Assembly (NCBI RefSeq): GCF_002814095.1
Contig: NZ_CP021913.1
Span: 1,550,001-1,614,000 of the forward strand
DNA length: 64,000 nucleotides
Direction of reading: 5' to 3'
Source: Sagittula sp. P11
GTDB lineage: Bacteria > Pseudomonadota > Alphaproteobacteria > Rhodobacterales > Rhodobacteraceae
Part shown: positions 20,577 to 42,629 of the stretch, in pieces
Layout: the number at the start of each line of letters is the position of its first letter
Numbering within the stretch: the stretch's first letter is position 1
Notes under the pieces: generated by a model
Database searches by the model: none
Told to the model about the DNA's origin: nothing
Seen by the model: the letters and a program-made list of their open reading frames with translations, nothing else
Translations under genes and position numbers: made by a program

Positions 20577-21898
20577 ATCGCGCCGCCTTCGGCCAGCGCG
20601 CCACGCAGGCGGGCCAGTTCAAGCTCCGCGCGGGCGGCCTTGTATTTCAGCTCGATCTCCGTCTCCAGCGCGCGGGCGTAGGTCTCGTAGGTGTTGACCA
20701 CGTCCATGACCTGCCGCTGTCCGCCTTCGAACTGGCGCTGGAACATGTCGAGGTTCTGTTTCGCGGCTGCGGTCAGGCCCTTCGCCTCGCCCGCCTGCCG
20801 CTCGTAGGCCACAAGCCGCGACTGCTGGCTGGCGATATGACGATCCGCGGTCTCGCGCGCCTCGGCAACCTTGCGGTCGGAGGTCTCCTTCGTGGCCTCG
20901 ATGGCCTTGAACTCTGCCAGCGTGCCCAGCCCGAAGAGCGAATCCGTCGTCACCTCCAGCCCGCCGCTGGTATCGCCGTAACCGTCGACCGATCCGGTGG
21001 CGGCGAGCCCCGGCAGATGGCCGGCACGCTCGATCCGGGCCGTGGCCAGCGCCTGCTCCCGCTCGGCACGGGCGCGCAGGACGCCCAGGGCCTCACCCGC
21101 GGTGTCGTCGCGCAGACCGCCCAGCCCGCGCAGGTCGGTCAGGGAGGTCGCGGTCATGGCGTTCAGTTCGGCCAATGCGGTCGCCTCCGCCTCCTGCGCC
21201 TCGGCAGAGCGGGCGCGGATCGAGGCCAGCTTCTGTTGCAGGACGTTCAGGTCGGACGTGTTCGAAACGCCGCCCTGCACCCGCTGCTGCATGACCCATT
21301 CGAACTTTGCCATGTCGTCGTAGGCGCGGTTGAGATGCAGCGACAGGTCGCGGTTTTCCTCGGCGGTCACGTACAGCGACAGCGCGTCGAACACCCGCTG
21401 GTTGCCGTCTTCCACAAGCTGCACGGCGGCGCGTTCCACGTCCGCCTTGGCAAGGTCGCGCTCTGCCACCTTGCGCCCGTTGTCGAACAGCACTTGGTTC
21501 ACGACCATTTCCGCGACCAGATCCCCGAGGGAGGTCAGCGACACCCGCGGCCCGATCGTGGGCATCCAGTTCTTGCGGGCGGCCTCTTCCAGCAGTTGGG
21601 CCACGCGCAGCTCTGCCTCCGCCACCCGCGCGTCGGAGGCGATGACAGCATGCGACACGCGGGCGTAGGGCGTGCCGGAAACGATGACCGACGGCCGGGC
21701 CTGAAGGGCGGCGATGATCTCCGAGGCATCGCCCGGCCTGACCACGGCCTTCCGGACGCCCGCATCCTGTTCGGTCGGAATCGTCGCTTCGGCGCCCCTG
21801 AAACGTGACACGAAGCCTTCACCTATATCCGTGGAACACCCTGCCACGATTGCCGTCATGGCGATCATGGCCAGGCTCCGCCTGTAAACTACACTCAT
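20573..21898 (-). CDS. TolC-family outer membrane channel, lipoprotein
   Basis: Outer membrane exit channel of the type I system, 441 aa. The N-terminal signal ends in a lipobox (VAGCS, Cys21), so it should be lipidated. The body is two long helical repeats with the OEP pattern, including RVQGGVSNTSDLNVLQQKLA in the first and FEGGQRQVMDVVNTYETYA in the second repeat. It sits 109 bases after the adhesin stop and overlaps the ABC gene start. This matches the LapE/TolC position in lap-type operons. Confidence 0.92.
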   Translation of the reverse strand: MSVVYRRSLAMIAMTAIVAGCSTDIGEGFVSRFRGAEATIPTEQDAGVRKAVVRPGDASEIIAALQARPSVIVSGTPYARVSHAVIASDARVAEAELRVAQLLEEAARKNWMPTIGPRVSLTSLGDLVAEMVVNQVLFDNGRKVAERDLAKADVERAAVQLVEDGNQRVFDALSLYVTAEENRDLSLHLNRAYDDMAKFEWVMQQRVQGGVSNTSDLNVLQQKLASIRARSAEAQEAEATALAELNAMTATSLTDLRGLGGLRDDTAGEALGVLRARAEREQALATARIERAGHLPGLAATGSVDGYGDTSGGLEVTTDSLFGLGTLAEFKAIEATKETSDRKVAEARETADRHIASQQSRLVAYERQAGEAKGLTAAAKQNLDMFQRQFEGGQRQVMDVVNTYETYARALETEIELKYKAARAELELARLRGALAEGGAI

Positions 21899-22007
21899 TT
21901 CGTGCCCCCGTTGTCGGCCCGACTGCTCTGATTACCGGGATTCGGGGCCCGGTTGATCCGGACCTCCGAATGTCTTGCTTGTGCACCCTTTGCGCGGGCG
22001 TCCGTCT

Positions 22008-25000
22008 TCAGATCACCACGTTGGTGATGTCGTCGTCGATCAGGACGGTGGACCCGCCCAGCTCGAAGACGTTGAAGGTATTGCCGTCCTGCGTCACCGT
22101 CCCGTTCGCGGTGGCGCCGGTGATCGTGACCATGTCGTCCGACCCGCCGTGGATCGCGACCGTATCGGTCGTGGACGACAGCGCCTGGATCTGGCTTTCG
22201 GTGATCGTCAGCTGGCTGTCCTCGGCGAAGTGCAGGTCGATCGTGTCGATGTTGAACTGCCGCAGCGCAGAGGCGATGTCGTCCGACATCTGCACCTGGT
22301 TGGTGTTCGGATCGTCCGTCACGAGATACGCGCCCGAGGTGTTGCCCGCCTGGTCGGTGGACGCCAGCACGAGGTGCGTGCCGTCCGCGACCGTGTTCTG
22401 CAGGAACAGGTAGGTGTCCTGACCCGCCGACACGGTGTTGGCGATCTGCACCTCCGAGACGTTCGGGTTGCCGGACGGATCGCCGACCTTGCCGAGGAAC
22501 AGGTCGTCGGCGGTGGTGTCGGTCCAGACCTGCGCCACCCCGCCGCCGCTGCGGCCGTAGCCGGTCCAGCTCAGCGTGTCGGGCGCTTCGGTGTCGATGC
22601 TCAGCGTCTCGGTGATCGAGGCGGTGTTGCCCGCCGCGTCCACGGCAGAGATCACCACCGGCGTGCTCAGCGTGCCGGTCGGGATCGAGGAGGACGGCAC
22701 ATCCACCGTCCAGCTTCCGTTCGCGGCCACCGTTGCCACATGGGTGTGGCCGTCGATCTCGATCTCGACGGTCGAGCCAGGTTCGACGTTGCCGGTCAGG
22801 GTGATGCCCGCTGCGGCCTCGGCAAAGTTCACCACGCCGTCGCCCGCCACCGTGCCGGTGGTCTCCAGCTGGTTCACCAGCGTGTCGATGGCAAAGTTGA
22901 CCTGCGTCGTCGCCGTGTTGCCTGCCGCATCGGTGGTGTTCACCGTGGCAGAGGCCGGCATCTCGCCCGACGGGACCCGAGCGGCAGAGAAGTCCACCGA
23001 CCAGTTGCCCTGGCTGTCCACCGTCGCGTTGTGCGTGACACCGTTGAAGCTGACAGAGACCGTGGCACCCGGCTCCGTCGTGCCCTTCAGGGTGAAGCCG
23101 TCCGACGCCTCGGCGGCGTTGATGACGTTGTCGCCCTCGACCGGATCGGTGGAGGTGGCGAAGTTCTGCACCTCGGTGTCCACCTTCACGCTGTCCGTCC
23201 GGGTCAGCGTGTTGCCCGCGCTGTCCACGATCTGCGCGGTGATCTGCGCGGTATAGGTGCCGGGCGCGATCTCGTTCGCGGCGAAGGGCGCGACCCAGTT
23301 TCCGTTGGCATCGGTCAGCACCCGGTGGGTGACACCTTGCATGGTGACATCGACATACTGGCCCGGGGTGGAGGTGCCGGTCAGCACCACGCCGTCGGAC
23401 GCCTCGACGAAGTTCACCACGTCATCGGTTTCCACCGGGTCCGGGTCGATGGTCAGGCGGCCCGCGTCGGTGTCGATCACCACGTTCTGGGTAATCGTCT
23501 GCGTGTTGCCCGCACGGTCGGTCGACACGGCGGTCAGCACGGTGGTCGTCTCGCCCGTCGGCAGCTGCGAGGAGACGAAAGACGCCGTCCAGTTGCCGTT
23601 CGCATCGACAGAGGCGTTCACCGTCTGCCCGTTCAGCGTCAGCCGCACCGCGCCGCCGGGTTCGGTGGTACCGGTCAGGGTCAGACCCTGCGAGACTTCG
23701 GCGGCGTTCATCACCCCGTCCGCGCCACCGGGCGTGGAGGTCAGGGCAAAGTTGCGCACGAAGGTGTCCACCTCGACGCTGCCGGATGCGGTGGCCGCGT
23801 TGCCGGCGGCGTCGACGGAAGTGGCGCTGGCGGTCAGCGTCGTCTCGCCTGCCGGGATCTCGGCGGCGGCGAAATTCGCGCTCCAGGTGCCGTCCGCGGC
23901 GACGGTCGCGGCGTGGGTCACGTTGCCCAGTGTCACCTGCACCGAGGAGCCGGGCTGGGTCGTGCCGGTCAGGACGATACCATCCGCGCGCTCGGCGAAG
24001 TTGATGACACCGTCGGTTTCCACGGTGGAGGTGGCGATGGTGACGGTGTTCAGCGTGTCCACGGCGATGCTGCCGGAGGTGCTGGCGCTGTTGCCCGCCA
24101 CGTCAGTCGAGGTGACGGCCACGTTCAGCGCCGTTTCGCCCGCCGGGATGGACGCGGCAGGGACCGTCACGCTCCATGTGCCGTTCGCGTTGGCCACGGT
24201 ATCGATGGCAAAGGGCGTGCCGCCCGCGGCGCCGACCGTGCCTGTGATGCGCGCGCCCGGCTCTGCGTTGCCGGTGAGGACAAAGCCGTCCTGCGCCTCG
24301 GTCGCGTTCACCACGCCGTCGCCTTCGACGGTCGCAGTGTTCACGGTCACGGCGGTCTGGGTGTCGACGGCGATGCTGACGGTCTGCATCGCGGTATTGC
24401 CCGCAAGATCGGTCGCGGTGACGGAAGCGCCCAGCGTGCCGACCCCTTCGGGGATCAGCGCGGGGGGCACGGTCACGCTCCACGCGCCGGTGTTGTCGGC
24501 GGTGGCGCTCAGGGTCTGGCCGCCGATGGCGACGGCAATGGTCGCGCCCGGCTCTGCCCCGCCCGCCAGGGTCACACCCGCCGCGCGTTCGGACGCGTTC
24601 ACCACGAAGTCGGCATCGTCGAAGCTGGCGAAGAGCGAGGTGTTGCGGTCCACCGTCACGGTGCCGGATGTGGAGGTCGTGTTGCCTGCAGCATCCACGG
24701 CCGTGGCCGTCAGCGTGCCGGTGTATCCCAGCTCCGAATGGCCCGGCGCGCCGTCGATCAGCGACGGCGAGAAGTCGAGCGTCCAGGTTCCGTCCTGCGC
24801 CACGGTCGTCGTGCCCAGCGTCAGCCCGCCGGAGGTCACGGTAATCGCCGATCCGGCCTCGCCCGTGCCGGTCACGGTCACGTCAGAGCCATACTCCGCA
24901 CCGTTCACCACGCCGTCGACGGCAACGCTGCCGGTGTCGATGGTCACGGCCTGCTCGGTATCCACGTCGAAGCTGTGCGAGGTCGTGGAGACGTTGCCCG

Positions 25001-26408
25001 CCGCATCGGTGGCGGTGACATCCGCCGTGGCCGTATAGGTGCCCGGCGCAAGGTCGCCGCTGCCGAAGGTCACGGACCACGCGCCGCTGGAATCGGCGGT
25101 CGCGGTCTGGGTCACGCCGGCGATCACCACGGAAACCGCATTGCCCGGCTGGGACGTGCCGCTCAGCGTCACACCGGCGGCATGTTCGGCGGCAGAGATC
25201 AGGTCGTCCCCGGTCAGCGGCACGTTGTCGAGCGCCACCATGTTGACCGTGTCGATCTGAACCTGGTCGGTGACCGTGGTGCTGTTGCCGAAGGCATCGG
25301 TGGCCGTCATCGAGAAATCGGTGACGTATTCGCCTTCGGGGAAGACGGTGTCGTCGAAGGTGAAGCTCCACGCGCCGTCCGTGCCGATGATCACCGTTTC
25401 CGACACGGTGCCGATGGTGATCGTCAATTCCGCACCCGGCTCGCCGGTCCCGGTGATCGTCACGCCATCGGAATGATCGACCGCGTTGACGATGTCGCCC
25501 AGCGAGACGGTGCCATCCGTGATGTCGATGGCCGGGGGCGTCGTGTCGATCACGAAGGACGGGCCGTCGAGATCGGTGACCGTGCCGTTCGGATCGGTGA
25601 CGGTAACGTCGATGTCCTCGTAGCTGCCGTCATCGGGAAACTCGGGGCCGGTGAAGATCACCTCCCACGTGCGGTCCTCGCCGGCGGTCGCGGTGACCGT
25701 GTCGTCGCCGATCACCACCTCGATCACCGAGCCGGGGTTGGCCGTGCCGGTGACGGTCAGGGTGGGATCGTCGTTGCCGCTGATACTGTAGGATTCATCC
25801 GGGTTGTCGACGGTCGGCGCGATCCAGTTGTCGCCAGACGATCCGTCGCCGCCATCGCCACCGCCGCCGCCCTTGCCGCCGACCAGAAGCGGCAGACCCA
25901 AGAGCGCACCAAGGCCGCCGGCCCCCGCGCCGCCAAGGCCGAGCAGCGGCAGAGCCGCGAGCATCGTGGCCTCTTCGCCCTCACCGTCGAAGTCGGAAAC
26001 ACCCTGCGCCACGACCTCCGGATCGTCGATGAAGATCAGCGAGTCGGACGGGCTCCACTTGCCCCATGTCTCCGTCGGGCCGTACTGAGCGAACAGGACG
26101 CCACCCTCGGTCTCGACAAAGCTGACCTCGTTCAGTTCGCCGTTGGCGCTGATGAAGAGACGGCTGTTCGCGGCGCCCGCGCTGCCCGAACTGAAGTAGT
26201 CCTCCAGCACGATCACACGGCCATCGGCAAGGGTGATCAACAGGTCATTGGCCGCCCGGTCGTAGCCGCGCAGGTCGCTCTGACCGATGTTTAGGGAAAT
26301 ATCGTTACCTGCGCCGCCAGCAAGAAGAAAACTTTGTCCTTCACCACCAACGGAACCGCGTTCCACCGCACCCTCAGGGGTACGGATCACGAATTCAATC
26401 GCATTCAT
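22008..26408 (-). CDS. large BapA-like surface adhesin with 11 Ig-like repeats
   Basis: A 1466-aa type I secreted adhesin. Residues 1-125 resemble the BapA/LapF prefix domain (ISLNIGQSDL, LLITLADGRVIVLEDYF, TWGKWSPSD). A hydrophobic, glycine-rich stretch (about 148-190) ends in poly-Gly. Residues about 216-1286 hold 11 tandem Ig-like repeats of about 97 residues, each opening as VTLTGTxEPG and containing the DAAGN motif and a VDT boundary. The C-terminal 175 residues lack RTX nonapeptides and carry the likely secretion signal (ending DDDITNVVI). The ATG follows an in-frame GTG one codon upstream. Genes for TolC, ABC exporter and HlyD follow directly. Confidence 0.9.
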   Translation of the reverse strand: MNAIEFVIRTPEGAVERGSVGGEGQSFLLAGGAGNDISLNIGQSDLRGYDRAANDLLITLADGRVIVLEDYFSSGSAGAANSRLFISANGELNEVSFVETEGGVLFAQYGPTETWGKWSPSDSLIFIDDPEVVAQGVSDFDGEGEEATMLAALPLLGLGGAGAGGLGALLGLPLLVGGKGGGGGDGGDGSSGDNWIAPTVDNPDESYSISGNDDPTLTVTGTANPGSVIEVVIGDDTVTATAGEDRTWEVIFTGPEFPDDGSYEDIDVTVTDPNGTVTDLDGPSFVIDTTPPAIDITDGTVSLGDIVNAVDHSDGVTITGTGEPGAELTITIGTVSETVIIGTDGAWSFTFDDTVFPEGEYVTDFSMTATDAFGNSTTVTDQVQIDTVNMVALDNVPLTGDDLISAAEHAAGVTLSGTSQPGNAVSVVIAGVTQTATADSSGAWSVTFGSGDLAPGTYTATADVTATDAAGNVSTTSHSFDVDTEQAVTIDTGSVAVDGVVNGAEYGSDVTVTGTGEAGSAITVTSGGLTLGTTTVAQDGTWTLDFSPSLIDGAPGHSELGYTGTLTATAVDAAGNTTSTSGTVTVDRNTSLFASFDDADFVVNASERAAGVTLAGGAEPGATIAVAIGGQTLSATADNTGAWSVTVPPALIPEGVGTLGASVTATDLAGNTAMQTVSIAVDTQTAVTVNTATVEGDGVVNATEAQDGFVLTGNAEPGARITGTVGAAGGTPFAIDTVANANGTWSVTVPAASIPAGETALNVAVTSTDVAGNSASTSGSIAVDTLNTVTIATSTVETDGVINFAERADGIVLTGTTQPGSSVQVTLGNVTHAATVAADGTWSANFAAAEIPAGETTLTASATSVDAAGNAATASGSVEVDTFVRNFALTSTPGGADGVMNAAEVSQGLTLTGTTEPGGAVRLTLNGQTVNASVDANGNWTASFVSSQLPTGETTTVLTAVSTDRAGNTQTITQNVVIDTDAGRLTIDPDPVETDDVVNFVEASDGVVLTGTSTPGQYVDVTMQGVTHRVLTDANGNWVAPFAANEIAPGTYTAQITAQIVDSAGNTLTRTDSVKVDTEVQNFATSTDPVEGDNVINAAEASDGFTLKGTTEPGATVSVSFNGVTHNATVDSQGNWSVDFSAARVPSGEMPASATVNTTDAAGNTATTQVNFAIDTLVNQLETTGTVAGDGVVNFAEAAAGITLTGNVEPGSTVEIEIDGHTHVATVAANGSWTVDVPSSSIPTGTLSTPVVISAVDAAGNTASITETLSIDTEAPDTLSWTGYGRSGGGVAQVWTDTTADDLFLGKVGDPSGNPNVSEVQIANTVSAGQDTYLFLQNTVADGTHLVLASTDQAGNTSGAYLVTDDPNTNQVQMSDDIASALRQFNIDTIDLHFAEDSQLTITESQIQALSSTTDTVAIHGGSDDMVTITGATANGTVTQDGNTFNVFELGGSTVLIDDDITNVVI
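22551..25763 (-). repeat. 11 tandem Ig-like repeat units within the adhesin
   Basis: About 3.2 kb encoding 11 units of roughly 97 residues. Each unit has the pattern (V/L)TGTxEPG, GxW near the middle, then TATDAAGN and VDT. Units differ at many positions and in DNA, so they are old divergent repeats and not recent identical copies. Repeat number may still vary between strains. Confidence 0.85.
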
Positions 26409-26431
26409 CACTACACCGCTCTTGCCTCTGC

Positions 26432-26458
26432 GCCCGTCGATTTTTTTATTTGACGGGC
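26432..26458 (-). promoter_or_regulatory. hairpin in the 5' leader of the adhesin gene
   Basis: A perfect 7-base stem, GCCCGTC at 26432-26438 pairing with GACGGGC at 26452-26458, with an A/T-only 13-base loop, lies 24 bases upstream of the adhesin start. It is in the untranslated leader if transcription starts upstream. A flanking T-run lies on the plus strand side, but no plus-strand gene ends here, so a terminator role is not obvious. Confidence 0.45.
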
Positions 26459-26594
26459 ATTTTTTGCTCTGATGACCGGTTAACTTATTTTGGTCTCAGT
26501 CGCTAGGCGAAATTGACGTTGGTGCCGCCTCACGTCGCTTTGATCAGGATAAATCGCAAGTTCTGCGTCATCTTGTGGCAAAAATGCGGCGGTC

Positions 26595-27707
26595 TCAGCA
26601 ACTATCGAAATGCATGGCCTGGCCGCGTTGTGCCGCAAGTTGTGCGGCCAATCCCATTCTCACCGCCCAGGCCCCATCCTGCAGCGAGACCTCGCAGCGC
26701 GCGCCATTCCTCACCGCCTCAAGGAATCGGACATGCTGATAATAGGTGGCACCGTTGTGGTCGCCCGCATCCAGAAGAGTCGGGTCGACGGGTATTTCCA
26801 CGATGCGCGGCGCCTTCGGGCTTCGCGGGCTGACAATGACCTGCGGCACCGGCGCCTCCGATGCGGGGCCGGGCCAGAATCGGGTGGGTCCGGGCACCAG
26901 CGCCTCGATCTTGCCAACGGGGCCGACCGCCAACAGCTCCTCCTGGTAGCGGGAACCTTCTGCGTACATGCAAAGCTCCAGCATGGCGCGGGCGCCGTTG
27001 GCGAAATCGACGATGACATAGGCGCTGTCCCAGATGTCGGGCACCTCCTCGCCATAGCGTTCGTCGAGGTGGTTCACCTCCTGCCCGGCGCTGGCCATGA
27101 TCCGCACCGGGTCGGACTTCAGGATCAGGCGCATCAGGTCGAAGAAGTGGCAGCACTTCTCCACCAGCGTGCCGCCGGTGTTCCGATTGAAGCGGTTCCA
27201 GTCGCCGACCTTCGGCAGGAACGGAAAGCGGTGTTCCCGGATGGTCAGCATCTTCACACCGCCGGTCGCGGCCTCCACCTGCTGCAGGAAGGTCGCAACA
27301 GGCGGCATGTAGCGGTATTCCATCGCCACCCAGATCGGCGCGGGATAACTGGCCGCGATACGCGCGACGCGTGCCGCATCCTCGGGCGCGGTATAAAGCG
27401 GCTTCTCCATAAGGATCGGAAGCGGCCTCAGCTCTGCAATCCGTTCGAGCTGCGACAGGTGCAGGTGGTTCGGACTGGCGACCAGCAGCGCGTCGAGGTC
27501 AGGCTGGGCCAGAAGGTCGTCGACAGAGGAAACCTGCCCGGCCCCCGGGGCAAGGGCGCGTGCCGCGCCGGCCATCGCCTCCGACGGCTCGTAGATGGCG
27601 GCGACGCGGGCATTGGGCAGAAGGGCGATGTTGCGCAGGTGCTCCTGCCCCATCATGCCGCAGCCGATGACACCGTAATTGACGGTCGCGAGAGAGATGT
27701 CCTTCAT
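26595..27707 (-). CDS. Gfo/Idh/MocA-family protein, candidate NAD-dependent sulfoquinovosidase
   Basis: A 370-aa protein with an N-terminal Rossmann fold (YGVIGCGMMGQEH) and the family motif MEKPLY containing the EKP lysine. The C-terminal alpha/beta domain carries the substrate site (EKCCHFFDLM). Context: it overlaps a GntR gene (ATGA) and sits opposite LLM, AKR and flavin reductase genes that fit the sulfo-SMO pathway. Known work shows that some Gfo/Idh/MocA proteins in such clusters are NAD-dependent sulfoquinovosidases (family GH188). That role is inferred here from context; a plain sugar dehydrogenase is the alternative. Confidence 0.72.
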   Translation of the reverse strand: MKDISLATVNYGVIGCGMMGQEHLRNIALLPNARVAAIYEPSEAMAGAARALAPGAGQVSSVDDLLAQPDLDALLVASPNHLHLSQLERIAELRPLPILMEKPLYTAPEDAARVARIAASYPAPIWVAMEYRYMPPVATFLQQVEAATGGVKMLTIREHRFPFLPKVGDWNRFNRNTGGTLVEKCCHFFDLMRLILKSDPVRIMASAGQEVNHLDERYGEEVPDIWDSAYVIVDFANGARAMLELCMYAEGSRYQEELLAVGPVGKIEALVPGPTRFWPGPASEAPVPQVIVSPRSPKAPRIVEIPVDPTLLDAGDHNGATYYQHVRFLEAVRNGARCEVSLQDGAWAVRMGLAAQLAAQRGQAMHFDSC

Positions 27708-28405
27708 TTCAGCCGTGCCACGTATGTTGCAACTGTCGTGTCGATCCAGCCGCGCGACACCTCCGCGCGCGCGCCCTCGCGCGAGAAACTGATGCGCGAG
27801 GCCAGGAGCGTCGGTGTGCCGGCGGTCAGGCCGTAGGACGCTGGCGCCCAGTCGGGCACCGGCGCGACAGTCATCCGGTCCTCCACCCGGCCGATCATCA
27901 GCCCAAGCTTGTCGCGGTAGAACAGGTACAGCGACTCCGACAGGTCAGCGCGGGTCATCCTTGCCGCGTAGGAGGCGTCGAGGAAGACCTCTTCGAGGAT
28001 CGCGGGCACACGGTTCAGACGGCGCAGGCGGCGGATGCGCCACGCCTCCCTGTCCGTTCCGAACGCCGGGAGGTCATCGGGCTTCGGCACCCTCGCCACA
28101 TCGAGGACCTCGGCGGTGGGCAGGCCGCCGCCTTCCAGCAGCTCGACCCGGAAGAAGGCATAGACCGCCTGCACGTCGGCCCGCGCGCGGATGTAGTTGC
28201 CCGACCCCTGCACCCGATCCAAGAGCCCCTTCTCCGTCAGGTCGGCCAGCGCCTTGCGCAGCGTTCCGACGGAAATCCCCAGCTTGGCGGCGTAGTCGCG
28301 TTCGGGCGGCAGGCGCTCCCCGTCCGCGAGGCGCCCGGCATTGATCTCCCGGATCAGCATCTCGCTGATCTGGAGGTACAGGGGCAGGGCGTAGCGGTCG
28401 GTCAT
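27704..28405 (-). CDS. GntR-family transcriptional regulator (HutC/UTRA type)
   Basis: A 233-aa regulator. The N-terminal winged helix-turn-helix begins PLYLQISEMLIREINAGRL and includes ERLPPERDYAAKLGIS and TLRKALADL; the C-terminal half is a UTRA effector domain (about residues 85-230, ending SFSREGARAEVSRGWID). The start ATG at 28405 was chosen to match the usual GntR opening. It is divergent from the LLM gene across an 85-base spacer that holds an 11-base tandem repeat. It likely controls the cluster by sensing a sugar or sulfosugar phosphate; the effector is unknown. Confidence 0.9.
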   Translation of the reverse strand: MTDRYALPLYLQISEMLIREINAGRLADGERLPPERDYAAKLGISVGTLRKALADLTEKGLLDRVQGSGNYIRARADVQAVYAFFRVELLEGGGLPTAEVLDVARVPKPDDLPAFGTDREAWRIRRLRRLNRVPAILEEVFLDASYAARMTRADLSESLYLFYRDKLGLMIGRVEDRMTVAPVPDWAPASYGLTAGTPTLLASRISFSREGARAEVSRGWIDTTVATYVARLK

Positions 28406-28420
28406 TGCGCGCAATCCGAA

Positions 28421-28442
28421 ATTGATACACCATTGATCTACC
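28421..28442. promoter_or_regulatory. tandem 11-base repeat, candidate GntR operator
   Basis: ATTGATACACC (28421-28431) is followed at once by ATTGATCTACC (28432-28442), matching at 9 of 11 positions and so placing two sites on the same DNA face. The repeat lies between the divergent GntR and LLM genes, where an autoregulated operator is expected. Binding is inferred only. Confidence 0.42.
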
Positions 28443-28490
28443 CAAAATCCGCGGCTAAGCAATATGGAAAATGCGGACCGGAGACATCTT

Positions 28491-29645
28491 ATGACCGTTG
28501 TGCCCATCACCTCCCCCGATCTCGACGCCGCCGAGGTGTCATGGTTCGCGGCGCTCTGTTCCGACGACTACGAATACCTCGGAGTTCCTGAGGGCCGGTT
28601 AAGGTCGTCCTGGGCGCATTGCTCCTCCATCGTGCGGGAGGCAGAGCAGCAGGGCTTCCGCAACATCCTCTGCCCGTCGAGCTACCAGGTGGGGCAGGAT
28701 ACCCTGTCCTTCGTCGCGGGCTGCGCGCCGATCACCTCGAAGATCAACATGCTGGCCGCCGTGCGCTGCGGCGAGATGCAGCCCATCATGCTGGCCCGCA
28801 CCATCGCAACGCTGGATCACATGCTGGAGGGGCGGCTGACGGTGAACATCATCTCGTCCGATTTCCCCGGCGAGAAGGCCGACAGCAGCTTTCGCTACCG
28901 CCGCAGCCGCGAGGTGGTGGAAATCCTGAAGCAGGCCTGGACCCGCGACCAGATCGACCACGACGGAGAGGTCTACAACTTTCATGGCCTGACGACGGAT
29001 CCCGCCCGCCCCTACCAGACCGGCGGACCACTGCTCTACTTCGGCGGCTACTCTCCCGACGCGCTGGAACTGTGCGGCCAGCATTGCGATGTCTACCTGA
29101 TGTGGCCCGAACCCAAGGACCAGATCGCGGAACGGATGAAGGCGGTGAACGCGGTGGCGGAACGCTATGGGCGTACGCTGGACTACGGCCTGCGCGTCCA
29201 TGTCATTGTCCGCGATACGGAGGCCGAGGCCCGCGAATACGCCGAACACATCACCTCGAAACTCGACGACGAGATGGGCCGCCTGATCCGCGAACGCGCG
29301 CTGGACGCGGGCTCCCTTGGCGTTTCGCATCAGGCCCGCGCGCGCGAACTGGCGGACCAGTACGGTTATGTTGAACGGCACCTCTGGACCGGCATCGGCC
29401 GGGCGCGGTCGGGCTGTGGGGCGGCGATTGTCGGCTCCACCGACCAGGTGCTGTCCGAACTGGAAGAGTACCGCCGGATGGGCATCCGTGCCTTCATCCT
29501 GTCGGGCTATCCGCATCTGGACGAATGCCGCCACTTCGGCAGCCGGGTCTTGCCGCACCTGAAGACCTGTTCATTGCCCGAAGCTTACGGCAGGGTACCG
29601 GCCACCGCCCCCGACACGCCGCTTGCCGCAGGAGCCCGCCGATGA
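28491..29645 (+). CDS. smoC: LLM-class flavin monooxygenase, SmoC-like (sulfoquinovose monooxygenase candidate)
   Basis: A 384-aa bacterial luciferase-like, FMNH2-dependent monooxygenase of the alkanesulfonate monooxygenase (SsuD) branch: NILCPSSYQVGQDTLSF, NIISSDFPGEKAD, EVVEILKQAW, YLMWPEPKDQI, RARSGCGAAIVGSTDQVL and GIRAFILSGYPHLDE. The product is expected to cleave a C-S bond, releasing sulfite. Adjacent AKR and flavin reductase genes in the same direction give the smoC-smoB-smoA set of the sulfo-SMO pathway. The ATG at 28491 has a CCGGAGA upstream; an ATG at 28464 is possible. The stop overlaps the AKR start (ATGA). The substrate is inferred from context and general resemblance. Confidence 0.75.
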   Translation: MTVVPITSPDLDAAEVSWFAALCSDDYEYLGVPEGRLRSSWAHCSSIVREAEQQGFRNILCPSSYQVGQDTLSFVAGCAPITSKINMLAAVRCGEMQPIMLARTIATLDHMLEGRLTVNIISSDFPGEKADSSFRYRRSREVVEILKQAWTRDQIDHDGEVYNFHGLTTDPARPYQTGGPLLYFGGYSPDALELCGQHCDVYLMWPEPKDQIAERMKAVNAVAERYGRTLDYGLRVHVIVRDTEAEAREYAEHITSKLDDEMGRLIRERALDAGSLGVSHQARARELADQYGYVERHLWTGIGRARSGCGAAIVGSTDQVLSELEEYRRMGIRAFILSGYPHLDECRHFGSRVLPHLKTCSLPEAYGRVPATAPDTPLAAGARR

Positions 29646-30532
29646 CCCCCCGCATCCAGATCACCGAAGACCTGTCGTTCTCGCGCCTCGTCTACGGCAT
29701 GTGGCGGCTGGGAGATGACGCCGACACATCGCCGGAGCACATCCGCAACAAGATCGCCGCCTGCCTCGACCAGGGCATCACCACCCTCGACCAGGCCGAT
29801 ATCTACGGCGGCTACATGGCCGAGGAGATCCTGGGTGGCGCCCTGACCCCTGCCCTGCGCAAAGAGGTCGAGATCGTCACCAAGTGCGACATCGTCGCGC
29901 CCGTGGGCCGGCACGCCGGGCACCGGGTGAAACACTATGACACGACACGCAAGCACATCCGCAGCTCGGTCGATGCCAGCCTGAAGCTGATGCGGACCGA
30001 TCACATCGACCTGCTGCTGATCCACCGCCCCGACCCGCTGATGGACCACGTGGAAACCGGTGCGGCGCTGGACGAGTTGATCGACAGCGGCAAGGTCCGC
30101 GCCGTGGGCGTGTCGAACTTCCGCCCGTGGGACTGGGAACTGCTGCAATCCGGCATGACCACCCCGCTGGCCACCAACCAGATCGAGATCTCGCTGCTGC
30201 ATCATCAGCCGCTGACCAACGGTGACCTCGCCTTTCACCAGCGGCACGGTCACCCGGTCATGGCATGGTCGCCGCTTGGCGGTGGCGCCCTCTTTGCGGA
30301 ATCCAGCGCGCCCCTGCGCGCGCGGCTGAACGGGATTGCCGAAGAACAGGGCGTTGATGCCGCAGCGGTCGCCGTCGCCTGGCTGATGACACATCCGGCA
30401 AGCATTCTGCCGGTCCTGGGCACGAACACCCTTGAGCGTATTGCCCGGATCGGCGATGCCTCCCGGGTGACGCTCGACCGGGAGACATGGTTTGAACTCT
30501 ATACCCTCGCCCTCGGCCACGAAGTGCCCTGA
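29642..30532 (+). CDS. smoB: aldo/keto reductase, SmoB-like (6-oxo-glucose reductase candidate)
   Basis: A 296-aa aldo/keto reductase of the YdhF-like branch. The TIM-barrel motifs are present: LDQADIYGGYMAEE with the catalytic Asp and Tyr, the catalytic Lys in EIVTKCDI, the catalytic His in LLIHRPDP, VGVSNFRPWD, and the NADPH-binding end VLGTNTLERI. In the sulfo-SMO pathway this enzyme reduces 6-oxo-glucose from the monooxygenase to glucose. The gene overlaps the LLM gene by four bases and is followed nine bases later by a flavin reductase gene. Confidence 0.78.
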   Translation: MTPRIQITEDLSFSRLVYGMWRLGDDADTSPEHIRNKIAACLDQGITTLDQADIYGGYMAEEILGGALTPALRKEVEIVTKCDIVAPVGRHAGHRVKHYDTTRKHIRSSVDASLKLMRTDHIDLLLIHRPDPLMDHVETGAALDELIDSGKVRAVGVSNFRPWDWELLQSGMTTPLATNQIEISLLHHQPLTNGDLAFHQRHGHPVMAWSPLGGGALFAESSAPLRARLNGIAEEQGVDAAAVAVAWLMTHPASILPVLGTNTLERIARIGDASRVTLDRETWFELYTLALGHEVP

Positions 30533-30541
30533 GGCCCGCCG

Positions 30542-31045
30542 GTGACACAGTCCACCGGCCACGAGAGCTTTGATCCGGCGGATGCCGATCCCCGTGCCTT
30601 CCGCGCGGCACTGGGCCGTTTCGCCACGGGCGTGACCGTGATCACCTGCGAAACGCCGACCGGACCGCTTGGGATCACCGCGAACAGCTTTGCCAGCCTG
30701 TCGCTGGAACCGCCGCTGGTGCTGTGGTCGCCGGCGAAGGCCTCGTCGCGCTACCCGTTCTTCATGGCGGCCAAGCACTTTGCCATCCATGTCCTCGGCG
30801 CCGAGCAGGAAAGCCTGTGCAAGCGTTTCGCGCAGGCAGGCGACGCGTTCGACGGCCTGGATTGGGCCACCGGGCCGCACGGCGCACCGCTGATCGAAGG
30901 CTGCCTCGCCCGGTTCGAATGCGAACTTTATGCGGCGCATGACGGCGGCGACCATTCGATCCTCGTCGGTCACGTCCTTCGGGTCACGGCCCGCCCCGGC
31001 GCGCCGCTCCTGTTCCATGCCGGCCTGTTCGGGCGGCTCGCCTGA
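30542..31045 (+). CDS. smoA: flavin reductase, SmoA-like (FMN reductase domain)
   Basis: A 167-aa flavin reductase-like FMN-binding protein (RALGRFATGVTVITCETPTG, GITANSFASLSLEPPLVLWSP, FAIHVLGAEQESLCKRFA). It should supply FMNH2 to the LLM monooxygenase. The start is GTG with a GAGG upstream. It ends the operon of LLM, AKR and flavin reductase. No transporter or sulfoquinovosidase of the GH31 type is next to it, so uptake must be handled from elsewhere. Confidence 0.85.
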   Translation: MTQSTGHESFDPADADPRAFRAALGRFATGVTVITCETPTGPLGITANSFASLSLEPPLVLWSPAKASSRYPFFMAAKHFAIHVLGAEQESLCKRFAQAGDAFDGLDWATGPHGAPLIEGCLARFECELYAAHDGGDHSILVGHVLRVTARPGAPLLFHAGLFGRLA

Positions 31046-31260
31046 TCCACGACGATGCCTGAAAGGCGCATCCTGAATGGGCGTTTCGCTAGGTCCAGCA
31101 CATCCCTGAATCGGGAATAATTGCCAGTTCATTGACGGAAATCGGCGAGTTGTGGGGTAACTCCGAAGATTTCCATTGCACACCTGCTACTTGCATTGTC
31201 TGGTCAACGAGATCACGATTTAGTCATCCATACTTCCTTCCCATTGATCAAAGGTCTGCC

Positions 31261-32604
31261 ATGCCTCTGACAACGCATTTCCTGAAGACGCTGACCCGCG
31301 TCTTCATCGCCTGCTGCGCCGCGGCGGTGCTGTCCGGCACGCCCGCCCATGCCGAGACGCTGGACGCCGAGGATTACACCCAATTCGACCCGGCGCAGGC
31401 GCGGCTCGGGCGGTTGCTGTTCTACGACAAGATCCTGTCCGGCAACATGAACATCAGTTGCGCCACCTGCCATCACCACAGTCTGCACGGCGCCGACGGC
31501 GTCAGCCTCGGCATCGGAGAAGGCGGGTACGGCCTTGGGCCAGACCGACTGTCCGGCCTTGTCGGCACCACCCGTGTGAAGGCCCGCATCCCGCGCAATG
31601 CCCCGGCCCTCTGGAACCTCGGGCACAGCGACCGCCGCGTGCTGTTCCATGACGGGCGGGTCGAGGTGGACGCGGATCAGCCCTCCGGGTTCCGCACCCC
31701 GGCAAAGGACCAGACACCCTCCGGCCTGAACTCGCCTCTCGCGGCGCAGGCGCTTTTCCCAATGACCTCCGCCGACGAGATGAAGGGCCGCGCCGGCGAC
31801 AACCCGGTGGCCGACGCCTTCGAGGCGAGCTTTACCGAAGGCTGGGACACCATTGCGCAACGCGTGCGCGACAACCCCGGGTACGAGGCCGCGTTCCTTG
31901 TCGCCTACCCGGAAATGACCAGCGCCGACGATATCGGCATCGTGGATATCGTCAACGCCATCGCCGCCTTCATCGGGACGGAATGGCAGAGCTTCGACAG
32001 CCCCTACGATGACTACCTGCGCGACGGCACGCCGCTCGAACCGCTGGCCGAGCGCGGGCGGGAGCTGTTCTTCGGCGACGCCGGCTGCGTGACTTGCCAC
32101 AGCGGCCCGCTGTTCACCGACCAGAACTTCTATGCCGCGGGCGTTCCGCAGTTCGGGCCCGGCCGCAAGTTCGAAGGCAACCTCCTGCCGGTGGACATGG
32201 GCCGGATGGAAACCACGGGCGATCCGGCGGACGCCTACAAGTTCCGCGTCCCCAGCCTGCGCAACGTCACGCTGACCGGGCCGTGGGGGCACAACGGTGC
32301 CTACAGCGACCTGCGCGACATGATCCGCCACATGTGCGATCCGGTCACGACACGCGCCCGCTGGTCGCCCGGCATGGCCCGCCTGCCCGATGTGCCCTGG
32401 CTGAGCATCGAGGACTTCACCATCGTCACCCATCGCGAGGAACAGCAGCGGCAGGCCAGGGCACTGGACATCGTGCCCGTTGCGATGGTCGAGGAGGACA
32501 TCGTGGCATTGGAGGCCTTCCTCGGGGCGCTGACCGGCAAGACCGCGCTGCAGCGCCCGCTGGGCCGCCCGGCACGGGTGCCAAGCGGGCTGCCGGTGGA
32601 CTGA
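31261..32604 (+). CDS. di-haem cytochrome c peroxidase / MauG-like protein
   Basis: A 447-aa periplasmic protein. A signal peptide ends at about Ala31 (AHA). Two c-type haem sites are visible: CATCH at residues 67-71 and CVTCH at 276-280. The segments RIPRNAPALWNLG, FRVPSLRNVTLTGPWGHNGAY and DLRDMIRHM are typical of the bacterial di-haem peroxidase/MauG family. It is longer than the usual CcpA (about 330-350 aa). The ATG at 31261 gives the signal peptide; an in-frame start lies further upstream. It is 215 bases past the flavin reductase gene and may be a separate unit. Confidence 0.9.
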   Translation: MPLTTHFLKTLTRVFIACCAAAVLSGTPAHAETLDAEDYTQFDPAQARLGRLLFYDKILSGNMNISCATCHHHSLHGADGVSLGIGEGGYGLGPDRLSGLVGTTRVKARIPRNAPALWNLGHSDRRVLFHDGRVEVDADQPSGFRTPAKDQTPSGLNSPLAAQALFPMTSADEMKGRAGDNPVADAFEASFTEGWDTIAQRVRDNPGYEAAFLVAYPEMTSADDIGIVDIVNAIAAFIGTEWQSFDSPYDDYLRDGTPLEPLAERGRELFFGDAGCVTCHSGPLFTDQNFYAAGVPQFGPGRKFEGNLLPVDMGRMETTGDPADAYKFRVPSLRNVTLTGPWGHNGAYSDLRDMIRHMCDPVTTRARWSPGMARLPDVPWLSIEDFTIVTHREEQQRQARALDIVPVAMVEEDIVALEAFLGALTGKTALQRPLGRPARVPSGLPVD

Positions 32605-32678
32605 AGGTTTAGCGACCTCTGACAATCCTGCGGCGCGGCTGCCAGGTGGCCGCGCCTATTCCATGACCGTAGAGGCCC

Positions 32679-33140
32679 TCAGACTCGCCGTTTCTTCAGG
32701 TCGCGCCACAGCGTGCGGGAGCGCTGCTTGTGGTCCAGATCCAGAAGAAGCTGCGCCAGATCTTCCTCCACCACACGCCTCGCCGCGCCCTTTATCGAGA
32801 ACCAGCGCCGCTTGCGCTGCTTGCGCTCTTTCCAGTCACGGCGCAGCGTTTCGACCAGCATGGGGTAGACGCGGACGGTGCAGGGCACGATGCACCCGTC
32901 GGACAAGATCTTTGCGTAGCTGAAGGACCCGATGGGCTGGCGCCCCACGTGACCGACCGCGCCCGCCTCTTGCAGGGCCTCGATCTCGGCCGCGGTCCAG
33001 GGTTGCCTTCCGTCCATCTGCCAGCCCTTGGGCATGACCCACCTGCCGGTGTCACGAGAGGTCACCATGAGGACCTGCAACCTGTCCTTGTCGCTCCACC
33101 GCAACGGCAGGGCAGCGATCTGTTCGCCGACCTCTGGCAT
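32679..33140 (-). CDS. NUDIX-domain protein with altered Nudix box
   Basis: A 153-aa NUDIX-fold protein resembling the diphosphoinositol polyphosphate phosphohydrolase type (LQVLMVTSRDTGRWVMPKGWQMDG). The Nudix box is altered: where AAxREVxEEtG is usual, this has AAEIEALQEAG. The Arg and one of the metal-binding Glu are lost. Hydrolase activity may be reduced or changed. The ATG at 33140 fits the domain start; longer in-frame starts exist. A tail rich in Arg/Lys ends the protein. The 250 bases upstream to 33390 hold no clear gene. Confidence 0.72.
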   Translation of the reverse strand: MPEVGEQIAALPLRWSDKDRLQVLMVTSRDTGRWVMPKGWQMDGRQPWTAAEIEALQEAGAVGHVGRQPIGSFSYAKILSDGCIVPCTVRVYPMLVETLRRDWKERKQRKRRWFSIKGAARRVVEEDLAQLLLDLDHKQRSRTLWRDLKKRRV

Positions 33141-33390
33141 GTGACGTGTCGTGCTCCTCCGCCTCCCGGCTCGCATGTATCGTCGGGGTGGCCTACCGCA
33201 TTCGGGTAAAGCGGACATGAACCCGGACACATCCTCCAGCCGATGAGGGTAGTGCCGCACGCCCTGTCCGGCAACGATCATGCAGCACCGTCGCGGGGTC
33301 GTCGCCGCCGATCACCTGCCAGAGGGAAACGGTGAAGCATGATGCACCCTGCCATTCAGCGTGTGGGTTCATCAAGGTGGCATTGAGGGG

Positions 33391-34599
33391 TCAAACCAAC
33401 TTGGCTTTGGCGCCTTCAAGTGCCGACCCCGCTGAAACCTTCGCCGACAACCAGTGGAAGAGGGGCAAGAGACCGACGGTTATGACCAGCAGCACCGCCG
33501 CCAGCTGGAACGTCGCCGCGAGCGTCACCCTTTCCGAAACCTGCCCCGCCACCATCGGCCCGGCCGCGATGCAGACATAGTAGACGGTGAAAAAGAGACC
33601 CATGCCCAAGGATCGCGACGCAGGCGGGAGTATCAGCGAGGGCAGACTGACCATGGCGCCCACTGCCACGCCCGAGGACAGACCGATCGCTACGACACAG
33701 GCGACCGAGTTCCCGATGACCGAGCTAAGCACGACGAAGAACGCGAAGCTCAGGTTTCCCAGCGCGATGATCTGGAGCCTGCGGCCGCTCCGATCCGCCA
33801 GAGTCCCGGCAATTGGCCCCATGATAGCCAGGCACCAGAGCACGATTGACGTCACCGAGCCCGCCTCTGCGAGGCCCATGCCGCGGCTGACGAACAACTG
33901 CGGGCCAAAGCTGAACACGATGGCCAGCGCTGCATTGTAAAGGCCCCAGATCGCACCCGACACCAGCACCGCCCAGAGAAGGGCGCCACGCACGCTGCCG
34001 GACCTTGCCAGGGCGGATTGCGCGCGGTCCCGGGGCGCTCGATACATCGCCCACAGTCCAAGCAGCGCCACGGCGATCAGCCCGGTGACAAGACCCATGG
34101 CAAGCGTCAGCCCACCTGAAACCGCAACGACCGGCAAGCCGATCAAGGCAACCGCGATCCCGACCGGCCATGAATTGACGAAAACGGCCATCGCCAGGCT
34201 GATCTCCCGCCCCGCGAACCAGTCCGACACCATCTTGGTCAACAGCACATTCAGAAAGACGCCTCCCACGCCGGATAAGACGCGTCCAAGGAGTTGCATG
34301 GACCAGTCGCCCGACACGGTCATCATGACCCCGCCGATCAACATGAAGCCCAGCCCCGCGAGAACGACCTGCTTCTCACCGAAGTATCGCCCAAGTGCGC
34401 CGCCAGGCGCCGCGATGAAGATGCCGGGGGCAAAATACAGGCCAATCAGGATGCCGACATCGGCAAGGCTGACGGCAAAGGCATCCTCGATGACCGGGGA
34501 CAGTGCAGCGACCATCTGGAACTGGATCGCCATGGTCATGCGCACCAGAAACAGCAGAGCCAATATGCGCCATCTTTGCGGAAAGACTTGCTGAGGCAT
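33391..34599 (-). CDS. MFS transporter
   Basis: A 402-aa inner-membrane transporter of the major facilitator superfamily with about 12 hydrophobic helices. Segments between helices 2 and 3 (GGALGRYFGEKQVVLAG) and helices 8 and 9 (AGTLADRSGRRLQI) are the two MFS motif A copies. It resembles cyanate/nitrate-type MFS proteins in general form, but the substrate is not evident. It is divergent from a LuxR-type regulator gene, which may control it. The ATG at 34599 was chosen, although the frame is open further upstream. Confidence 0.85.
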   Translation of the reverse strand: MPQQVFPQRWRILALLFLVRMTMAIQFQMVAALSPVIEDAFAVSLADVGILIGLYFAPGIFIAAPGGALGRYFGEKQVVLAGLGFMLIGGVMMTVSGDWSMQLLGRVLSGVGGVFLNVLLTKMVSDWFAGREISLAMAVFVNSWPVGIAVALIGLPVVAVSGGLTLAMGLVTGLIAVALLGLWAMYRAPRDRAQSALARSGSVRGALLWAVLVSGAIWGLYNAALAIVFSFGPQLFVSRGMGLAEAGSVTSIVLWCLAIMGPIAGTLADRSGRRLQIIALGNLSFAFFVVLSSVIGNSVACVVAIGLSSGVAVGAMVSLPSLILPPASRSLGMGLFFTVYYVCIAAGPMVAGQVSERVTLAATFQLAAVLLVITVGLLPLFHWLSAKVSAGSALEGAKAKLV

Positions 34600-34760
34600 G
34601 CGGACCTGCTCCGATTGACGTCTGTGACCAAAGTATTGCGGCAGATTACACTCGCCCACTGAACGTGAGTATCGGCCAGACGCATCACGTTTCATGCTGC
34701 AACTGCCGGATAGGCCCTCATGCAAATGCGGTATTGGCAAGCCTGCAGGTGCCAAGCAAG

Positions 34761-35600
34761 ATGGTTTGCGTCAGCCATTTTCGAGGCCCGACAGTGGACA
34801 AGGAACGATTGACCGGACGCGAAACCGAGATCGCACGCGCCTATGCCAGCGGCGGCACCTACTACCGGATCGCGGACCAGCTTGGCATAGCGCCGTCCAC
34901 TGTGCGCACGCATCTGGCATCAATCTATCGAAAGCTCGGCATTTCCTCGAAACTGGAACTCTTCAAGATCCTCGAAGGCGACGCGGTCGGGCCACGCGAA
35001 GAGACCGACCAGGCCGCGATCATCTCGGAACTGGCCCTGAGCCTCGAAGAGGCGCTCAGTCGCGAACAGGCGATTGGCGAAGTCCTTCGCATCATCAGCC
35101 GGTCGGAGGGCCGGATCGACGACGTCATCGAAGCGCTTCTGGGCTACGCGCTGGAGCTCTACGACGCACAGTTCGGATTGTTGCTGACCTATGACCCGGG
35201 CAGCGGATTTACCGCGCGATTCATGAAGGGCATACCACCGGCGTTCGAGGACTGGTGGGAGGAGCGCGGCAGCTACAGGCCGAGCCCGCAGACGGCAATC
35301 GGCAGGCTCGAGAAGAGCCTGGATGTCGTAAACATCCCCGACGTGCGGGCTGAGCCGATCTTTCGCCAGAACGATCCCCTCCGCCACGCAACGGCTGTGC
35401 TGGGCGGCGCGCGTTCCTTCACGGCAATCCCGATGCTGGCTGGAAAACGCCTCATAGGGGCGTTCACGATCTATCGTCAGCAATTGCGTCCGTTCGACGA
35501 AAGAACCGTCCAGATCGCCCGCAGCTTTGCGGACCAGAGCGCAATCGCCATCGAGAATGCAAGAATGATAGGGGCGCTGCGTTCGAGCATCAAATGTTAG
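34761..35600 (+). CDS. LuxR-type HTH plus GAF regulator, probably truncated
   Basis: A 279-aa protein with an N-terminal LuxR HTH (LTGRETEIARAYASG to TVRTHLASIYRKLGIS, about residues 16-60), a helical linker and a GAF domain (about 110-270). Related proteins that I know in alphaproteobacteria continue beyond a GAF domain, often to an adenylate cyclase catalytic domain. This one ends just after the GAF (IENARMIGALRSS) with a stop at 35598-35600. The ending may be a truncation or a genuine short form. The start at 34761 is uncertain; GTG at 34794 is the other choice. It is divergent from the MFS gene. Confidence 0.7.
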   Translation: MVCVSHFRGPTVDKERLTGRETEIARAYASGGTYYRIADQLGIAPSTVRTHLASIYRKLGISSKLELFKILEGDAVGPREETDQAAIISELALSLEEALSREQAIGEVLRIISRSEGRIDDVIEALLGYALELYDAQFGLLLTYDPGSGFTARFMKGIPPAFEDWWEERGSYRPSPQTAIGRLEKSLDVVNIPDVRAEPIFRQNDPLRHATAVLGGARSFTAIPMLAGKRLIGAFTIYRQQLRPFDERTVQIARSFADQSAIAIENARMIGALRSSIKC

Positions 35601-35746
35601 ACGAAGTGGTTCGCTCAGGATCGAAACCCGCGCCGTTCGAGCCTTTCAAGAGCCCATTGAACTGCGCCCAGCCCCTCCCTCCGGGCTACGATAAAGTCCG
35701 CTCCGACGAGGAAACGTATAGAGGAGCGACCGAGGTTCAGCGAAGA

Positions 35747-35757
35747 TGACCTGCCAC
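35747..35757. repeat. left terminal inverted repeat of the IS
   Basis: TGACCTGCCAC, the perfect inverted match to 37007-37017. It begins just outside the transposase stop codon at 35765. Confidence 0.85.
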
Positions 35758-35764
35758 TGAACTT

Positions 35765-36694
35765 TCATCCAGCCACGACCGGAGCCCGGTTAGTGTTTAC
35801 GCCGGTTGGCGCAGGTTGAGCAATCGCCCGGCGCGCGGAGCTTTCATCTCGCGCAGCGGGGCGGGCGATTGCGGTGGTCAGGGTCCGCGCGTAGGCAGCC
35901 GGGGTCTGGTAATCCAAGGCCGAATGGGGGCGCTCGGTGTTGTAGTCCGTAGCCCAGGCTGCGATCACGATCCGCGCATGGGCCAGATTGCGGAACATGG
36001 TCTCGTTGAGCAGCTCGTCGCGCATCCGGCCGTTGAAGCTTTCGACGAAACCGTTCTGCATCGGCTTGCCCGGCGCGATGTCGTGCCATTCGACCCGGTG
36101 CTCGGAACACCACCGCAGGATCGCGTTACTGGTCAGCTCCGTCCCATTATCGCTGACAATCATGCCGGGCTTGCCGCGGCGCTCGATCAGGGCCGTCAGT
36201 TCACGCGCGACACGGCGCCCTGAGATCGAGGTGTCCGGGATCGCCGCCAGGCATTCCCGGGTGACGTCGTCGACCACGTTGAGCACGCGGAAGCGCTGGC
36301 CGTTGGCGAACTGGTCATGGACGAAATCCAATGACCAACGGGCGTTCGGTCGCGCCTCGACCAGGATCGGTGCCCGCGTTCCGACCGCCTTGCGCCGCGC
36401 CTTCCGCTTGCGCACCGTCAGCCCTTCTTCGCGGTAGAGCCGATAGATCCGATTGATCCCCGAGGGCTCGCCCTCGCGGCGCAGCAGCACGAACAGGCGC
36501 CGGTAGCCGAACCGCCGACGCTCGTTGGCCAGGTCCCGCAACCGGCCGCGCAGAACCGTGTCCGGCGCGCGCTGAGATCGATAGCGGATCATCGTGCGAT
36601 CCGCGCCGACGATGTGGCAGGCCCGCCGTTCCGACAGGCCATGCTCAGCCTGAAGATAGGCGACGACTTCGCGCTTCACCGCGGGCCCTACCAC
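35765..36694 (-). CDS. IS3-family transposase catalytic subunit (OrfB)
   Basis: The 309-aa integrase-core transposase. The DDE residues are visible: Asp in [11 protein letters not shown], Asp in [11 protein letters not shown], and Glu in [17 protein letters not shown]. An HTH_21-type segment ([18 protein letters not shown]) precedes the catalytic core. It is most likely expressed as an OrfAB fusion by -1 frameshifting at AAAAAAG (36694-36700). The frame is intact, so the element may be active. The protein ends 18 bases before the IS end. Confidence 0.92.
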
Positions 36695-36954
36695 TTTTTT
36701 GAAACCAGATCCTTCATCGCCGCCAGATCCAGCATCTGTTCGGCCAGAAGCTTCTTCAACTTGGCGTTCTCATCCTCAAGCGCCTTCAGCCGCTTGGCCT
36801 CTGATACCGTCATGCCACCGAACTTGGCCTTCCAGTTGTAGAAGGTGCCTTCCGACATGCCGTGCTTGCGGCATAGATCGGCGCACTTCGCGCCGGCCTC
36901 ATGCTCGGCCAGGATGCCGATGATCTGCTCGTCCGTGAATCTCGTTCGCTTCAT
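36688..36954 (-). CDS. IS3-family OrfA, helix-turn-helix protein
   Basis: The 88-aa HTH_8/transposase_8-type protein that recognises the IS ends: [17 protein letters not shown] and [15 protein letters not shown], then a leucine-heptad helix ([18 protein letters not shown]). The stop TAG comes a few bases after the A6G slippery site, where ribosomes can shift -1 into orfB. It begins 63 bases inside the right IS end. Confidence 0.92.
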
Positions 36955-37006
36955 TGTCCGTCCTCAGGTTGGGCCGGACTCTAATCGACGGTGGAGGAAA
37001 AATCCC

Positions 37007-37017
37007 GTGGCAGGTCA
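37007..37017. repeat. right terminal inverted repeat of the IS
   Basis: GTGGCAGGTCA, the complement of the left terminal repeat. The neighbouring gene fragment reads directly into this sequence. Confidence 0.85.
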
Positions 37018-41045: not shown

Positions 41046-41079
41046 GGGGCGGTCAGCATGGGGCGGTCAGGTCAATTTC

Positions 41080-42501: not shown

Positions 42502-42629
42502 GGGTCAGGTGCCTTCCCGGGTCTTGGCGTTATTAGGCTAGGTGTAACGGGCCATGCCGATGGTATCCGGAACCAGGGCGGCGAAGGCGAGGACATTCGC
42601 CCGCCCCTTCCTTGCAAAGGGCCGGCAGC

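Follow-up and report, generated by a model that had tools for sequence, protein, structure and literature searches.

The 64-kb window analysed here, a stretch of contig C1 in the 5.58 Mb genome of Sagittula sp. P11 (designated G000), carries at 26595-31045 five genes that, judged from sequence, very probably (about 0.9) form a Roseobacter-type cluster for breakdown of the plant sulfur-sugar sulfoquinovose (SQ) by the SQ monooxygenase (sulfo-SMO, or sulfo-ASMO) route, with a glycoside hydrolase family 188 (GH188) protein as the predicted gateway enzyme. Matches of the smoC and smoB products to solved structures support the sulfo-SMO cluster that a sequence-only reading of the window had proposed. 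The cluster is of an already described kind, GH188 within Roseobacter sulfo-SMO clusters having been published (PMC10755693), and the present case adds refinements, not a new pathway. The features of the cluster and its immediate downstream neighbour are as follows.

26595-27707, minus strand: GH188 NAD+-dependent sulfoquinovosidase by sequence (SqgA-like), Gfo/Idh/MocA fold (GFO_IDH_MocA, 74.9 bits)
27704-28405, minus strand: GntR-UTRA (HutC-type) transcriptional regulator (PF00392 and PF07702; GntR, 59.7 bits)
28420-28446, no strand: operator-like element in the GntR-smoC intergenic region, from the alignment of divergent pairs (consensus AATTGATACActATTGATcTACatcAA)
28491-29645, plus strand: predicted SmoC, SQ monooxygenase dependent on reduced flavin mononucleotide (FMNH2) (Bac_luciferase, 188.9 bits; match to 7oh2)
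29642-30532, plus strand: predicted SmoB, aldo/keto reductase (AKR) converting 6-dehydroglucose to glucose (Aldo_ket_red, 181.9 bits; match to 7bby)
30542-31045, plus strand: candidate SmoA, flavin reductase with a GTG start (PF01613, Flavin_Reduct, 140.7 bits; position after smoB)
31261-32604, plus strand: di-haem cytochrome c peroxidase or MauG-family protein (PF03150; two CXXCH motifs)

The Pfam scores of the five cluster proteins were all far over the cut-offs. The GH188 and GntR genes overlap by 4 bases, and the start of smoB overlaps the stop of smoC by the 4 bases ATGA, read directly. Coordinates, overlaps and Pfam families bear out the sequence-only reading in its description of overlapping GntR and Gfo/Idh/MocA genes on the minus strand and of the plus-strand order C-B-A with an ATGA overlap; the peroxidase gene, a conserved neighbour directly downstream of smoA on the same strand, was absent from that reading.

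SmoC was identical at 309 of 382 positions (81%) to 7oh2, a solved SQ monooxygenase, and scored 722 and 711 bits against two solved SQ monooxygenases (711 bits for the Agrobacterium structure 7olf), compared with at most 190 bits against SsuD-type enzymes. The PDB titles of both matches name monooxygenases for oxidative desulfurization of sulfoquinovose. The luciferase-like monooxygenase (LLM) thus falls in the SQ monooxygenase group, distinct from SsuD/MsuD, and not in another sulfonate clade. The smoB product, encoded in the same operon, was identical at 195 of 292 positions (67%) to 7bby, which we take to be Agrobacterium SmoB, and has D50, Y55, K81 and H128 at the usual AKR tetrad motifs, consistent with a SmoB-type AKR. 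A flavin reductase partner is also present, assigned as SmoA by its family and its place in the operon; its best NCBIfam model was FerA (226 bits, below the cut-off of 260).

The Gfo/Idh protein is, by its sequence matches, a GH188 NAD+-dependent sulfoquinovosidase. In both sequence and fold, GH188 enzymes were by far its best PDB matches, with 62% identity to 8zn9, an entry carrying the title of a paper on a marine sulfonate-based carbon cycle, and 46% to both 8qc2 and 8qc3. In the literature searched, neither of the entry codes 8zn9 and 7bby led to a relevant paper. ArSqgA (8qc3), FlSqgA (8qc2) and the 8zn9 enzyme share with the window protein the fold, the NAD domain and the catalytic and sulfonate residues. 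When mapped to ArSqgA, eight of nine named GH188 residues were conserved in exact register: all five of the active-site residues Lys107, Tyr136, Glu189, His193 and His321, and the sulfonate triad Arg166, Leu170 and Lys172, which corresponds to R160, L164 and K166 here and is the sulfonate-binding set given in PMC11465081. Other Gfo/Idh and LLM families appeared at lower Z in the structure-search lists, in which a family not listed is not thereby excluded. No GH31 (PF01055) match was found in the whole genome, and the predicted sulfoquinovosidase of the cluster is the GH188 protein; the suggestions that no GH31 gene is adjacent and that the Gfo/Idh protein stands in its place both fit these results. 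Agrobacterium, by contrast, presumably has a GH31 sulfoquinovosidase in its smo cluster.

By analogy with characterised relatives, from which the chemistry, the substrate and the regulation are all taken, an SQ glycoside (sulfoquinovosyl glycerol being the likeliest) would enter through some importer, and GH188 would cleave off the aglycone through a sequence of transient C3 oxidation by NAD+, elimination, hydration and reduction. SmoA would supply FMNH2, with which SmoC, using O2, would cut the C-S bond to yield sulfite and 6-dehydroglucose; SmoB would reduce the latter to glucose with NAD(P)H, and GntR may control both divergent units from the conserved site between them. Annual production of SQ is put at about 10 billion tons (PMC10755693), and clusters of this kind give back its sulfur as sulfite while yielding glucose from its carbon. 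The genome holds one gene of the Mo-co_dimer (sulfite oxidase) type, at C1:783959. The Roseobacter GH188 sulfo-SMO clusters have, according to the text of PMC10755693, the same enzymes with a GH188 sulfoquinovosidase and no GH31, whereas the GH188 family was found through a sulfo-Embden-Meyerhof-Parnas (sulfo-EMP) cluster of Arthrobacter AK01 (PMC10755693), a different setting from the window copy. The smo cluster of Agrobacterium tumefaciens, as described in the reviews PMC9594981 and PMC12890257, has the same SmoA/B/C chemistry and an ATP-binding cassette (ABC) transporter for SQ glycerol, whereas no transporter is assigned to the window cluster.

Relatives of the locus were collected as the best 80 loci fetched with the GH188 protein from other genomes (more exist), mostly of Rhodobacteraceae, Roseobacteraceae and Paracoccaceae, with some rhizobia. 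Among them, SmoC and GntR were each found in 77, SmoB in 72 and SmoA in 70; of the tripartite ATP-independent periplasmic (TRAP) transporter genes, DctM was found in 48 and DctQ and DctP in 45 each, and the di-haem peroxidase in 23 (two nearest the window copy and 21 nearest a Ruegeria copy, with no double counting). Because the partner genes co-occur in most of these loci, the arrangement is not due to chance. A frequent order is GH188-GntR, divergent from SmoC-SmoB-SmoA-DctQ-DctM-DctP, followed in part by the peroxidase gene. Some loci deviated: a reduced cluster (L112, in genome G005) has GH188, GntR, SmoC and SmoA and no SmoB match, peroxidase or TRAP at the locus; no SmoB match was obtained in seven rhizobial loci (L043, L057, L060, L067, L079, L082 and L083); and L022 lies on a contig titled as an Acidobacteria metagenome-assembled genome with a SmoC falling among Nioella sequences, probably a binning error.

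GntR and SmoC were divergent in 87 of the 92 loci examined for their orientation, and the intergenic regions share AATTGATACActATTGATcTACatcAA followed by TGcTAcGCAAG; the 8-mer AATTGATA occurs, on either strand, in 77 of these 87 regions. The sole near-exact copy of the pattern TTGATANNNTATTGATCTA in the window genome is the smoC site at 28422-28440 (1 mismatch). With up to 3 mismatches allowed, six sites were found, against one for a reversed-pattern control; the other five have 3 mismatches each, three of them lie inside open frames, and no transporter was recognised downstream of the five by eye, no family search having been run on those frames. The smoC site was kept with 0-1 mismatch in G000, G001, G003, G028 and G005, and the element is looser in G245 and G181, with 3 mismatches each. 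In the other eight genomes, the further sites examined numbered four, each with 2 mismatches: three belong to G245 and one to G016. One of those in G245 lies just behind, not in front of, a 700-aa TRAP-like frame, and no importer was seen by eye at the other three. Across its whole genome, G245 shows an excess of operator-like sites, 22 with no more than 3 mismatches compared with two in the reversed control. Scans of 26400-32900 gave nothing above shuffled sequences for sigma-70 promoters (1 vs 0.9) or terminators (2 vs 2.9). The conserved operator-like sequence offers a search handle for the regulon.

Many relatives have TRAP DctQMP genes after smoA, whereas the window cluster is without them; for PMC10755693 the comparison is with the text. 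When a TRAP binding protein encoded in the smo cluster of a relative was used as a probe, it showed 68-88% identity to the cluster copies of TRAP-bearing relatives and gave only 24 weak matches in the TRAP-rich window genome (best E value 1.4e-27, 22-30% identity), none of which was a close SQ-type binding protein. The absence of an adjacent transporter noted in the sequence-only reading was thereby confirmed, and a dedicated SQ-TRAP importer, a common accessory of such clusters, was not found in the genome; the rule that defines sulfo-SMO clusters by SmoB and SmoC does not require it (PMC13372026). At E <= 1e-40 the SQ-TRAP binding protein was absent from seven of nine genomes (G000, G001, G003, G028, G005, G245 and G181) and present in both controls with TRAP at the locus (G016 and G023). 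An ABC sugar-binding protein from rhizobial clusters (f11) gave one 36% match and one weaker match in the window genome; as f11 and SmoF share only 23 bits, these matches say little about a SmoF-type ABC importer, the accessory of the Agrobacterium cluster.

A quick tree of SmoC was built from 91 rows out of 94 loci, with L034, L045 and L076 excluded because their SmoC was short or missing. The window sequence and those of G003, G001, G028 and G005 grouped with 99% support in the Shimodaira-Hasegawa-like approximate likelihood ratio test (SH-aLRT); none of the five has TRAP at the locus and four have the peroxidase. G245 and G181 share the arrangement of the window but fall elsewhere, the placement of G181 being weakly supported. 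The TRAP-less arrangement thus occupies three places on this quick tree, for which four changes are needed and well-supported branches force at least two. In the 82 loci whose downstream flank reached 6 kb or more (nine with shorter flanks were set aside), TRAP and peroxidase occurred together in 24, TRAP only in 21, peroxidase only in six and neither in 31. No importer common to the neighbourhoods of TRAP-less clusters was seen; what they have in common are adhesin and secretion genes and genes for a 200-aa protein, a histidine kinase, a disulphide oxidoreductase and a VTT-domain protein. The case illustrates that a cluster of this kind can lack the TRAP importer genes and still retain its enzymes and operator.

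Several points weigh against a working Roseobacter-type sulfo-SMO cluster. The predicted structure of SmoC was of moderate quality (mean predicted local distance difference test score, 69.7), and the weight therefore rests on the sequence match; Glu163 of ArSqgA, named as a further active-site residue (PMC10755693), was not found under that number in the mapping, which has Val at 163 and Glu at 164 (E158 here), perhaps a matter of numbering; and the flavin reductase is a candidate SmoA from its family and its place in the operon only. An SQ transporter is not assignable from the searches made, so that SQ use by the cell is not assured, and G005, the nearest TRAP-less sister genus found, is also without smoB and the peroxidase at the locus, which looks like decay. 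The last two points would suit enzymes that are sound but no longer serve on external SQ, the cluster being a relic after TRAP loss or acting on intracellular SQ only, a reading that we consider unlikely. It agrees with the lack of the SQ-TRAP binding protein in the seven genomes when both controls have it, with the losses in G005, which belongs to the same SmoC clade, and with the failure to recognise a co-regulated transporter at the further operator-like sites examined. It is opposed by the state of the genes: the five cluster genes are 93-98% identical between the window genome and G003, SmoC of G001 is 91% identical to that of the window, and neither comparison revealed internal stops; the active-site residues are kept, as is the operator in all five members of the clade, and other importers (ABC or major facilitator superfamily, MFS) could serve.

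The remaining alternatives concern substrate and enzyme class. Action on another sulfo-sugar or sulfonate, e.g. sulfofucose, or an alkanesulfonate for sulfur supply, is improbable. SmoC does match the NCBIfam alkanesulfonate monooxygenase model, but at 235 bits, far below its cut-off of 518, and 532 bits separate its SQ monooxygenase and SsuD matches; a sulfoquinovosidase gene also lies in the same cluster. A Paracoccus strain, Merri, is reported to grow on sulfofucose (PMC12421959), and GH188, GntR, SmoC, SmoB and SmoA are all encoded in L081, whose record bears the name Paracoccus onubensis strain Merri, but that paper names a different pathway for sulfofucose. It is hardly credible that the Gfo/Idh protein is not a glycosidase but an ordinary dehydrogenase of sugars or inositol: its Pfam and NCBIfam names are generic only, and the inositol 2-dehydrogenase model reached 105 bits, far below the cut-off of 355, whereas GH188 enzymes lead its PDB matches and the sulfonate-binding Arg, Leu and Lys are kept.

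The peroxidase downstream of this probable sulfo-SMO cluster has the haem motifs CATCH and CVTCH, at residues 67 and 276, and a probable signal peptide, judged by eye. In a family sample of 295 genomes, SmoC (E <= 1e-150) was found in 123, and 173 encoded a peroxidase of this type (E <= 1e-60), so that the latter is common by itself. Positions were compared with SmoC for 87 top-ranked peroxidase matches: 48 lay within 12 kb of SmoC and three farther off on its contig, 15 were in a SmoC-positive genome but on a different contig, and the genomes of the other 21 had no SmoC. In all 48 the peroxidase gene is downstream of smoC on the same strand (by eye), which amounts to at least 48 of the 123 SmoC-positive genomes; the other 75 had no such neighbour among the matches compared. 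The gap from smoC was 1.6-1.7 kb, leaving room for smoB and smoA only, in five (G000, G001, G028, G245 and G181) and 4.9-9.5 kb in the other 43. As these genomes are related, the linkage is a conserved neighbourhood and not proof of a shared function; it points to a peroxidase gene travelling with the cluster. Removal of peroxide leaked by the flavin system would be a guess at its role. A tentative and rather doubtful extension is that the peroxidase has a working role in SQ catabolism of the Roseobacter type and is retained despite TRAP loss, and that TRAP-less lineages use an undescribed importer for SQ or SQ glycerol. Judged by title and abstract, neither paper listed in a literature search that paired sulfoquinovose with cytochrome c peroxidase dealt with a bacterial SQ cluster, and the review PMC12890257 nowhere mentions peroxidase in its main text; we make no claim that this link is new to the literature.

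Beyond the peroxidase, an MFS gene at 33391-34671, 2.3 kb from the cluster, was considered as its importer and rejected. The stretch 33391-39372 holds this gene with genes for a LuxR-GAF regulator, rve and HTH_Tnp_1 transposases and TniQ, and looks like a recent insertion. Its flanks are close together in L109, L110 and L152, for which reason the MFS gene was not counted as part of the cluster; in the closest relative, L108, neither the MFS gene nor its flanking neighbours were present within the stretch fetched. On the other side of the cluster, adjoining the GH188 gene, 17149-26411 (minus strand) encodes a large BapA-like adhesin (1467 aa) with bacterial Ig repeats, together with HlyD, ABC and outer-membrane efflux proteins, and the adhesin or its secretion genes also stand beside the cluster in L004, L005, L008, L011, L052, L108-L112 and L152. 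A 200-aa protein without a Pfam match, NUDIX-like by eye (32679-33281, minus strand), is kept near the cluster in L109, L110, L112 and L152. The minus-strand genes at 39663-43367 encode a histidine kinase, a pyridine nucleotide-disulphide oxidoreductase and a VTT-domain membrane protein; all three are conserved beside the cluster in L110 and L152, and the first two also in L109.

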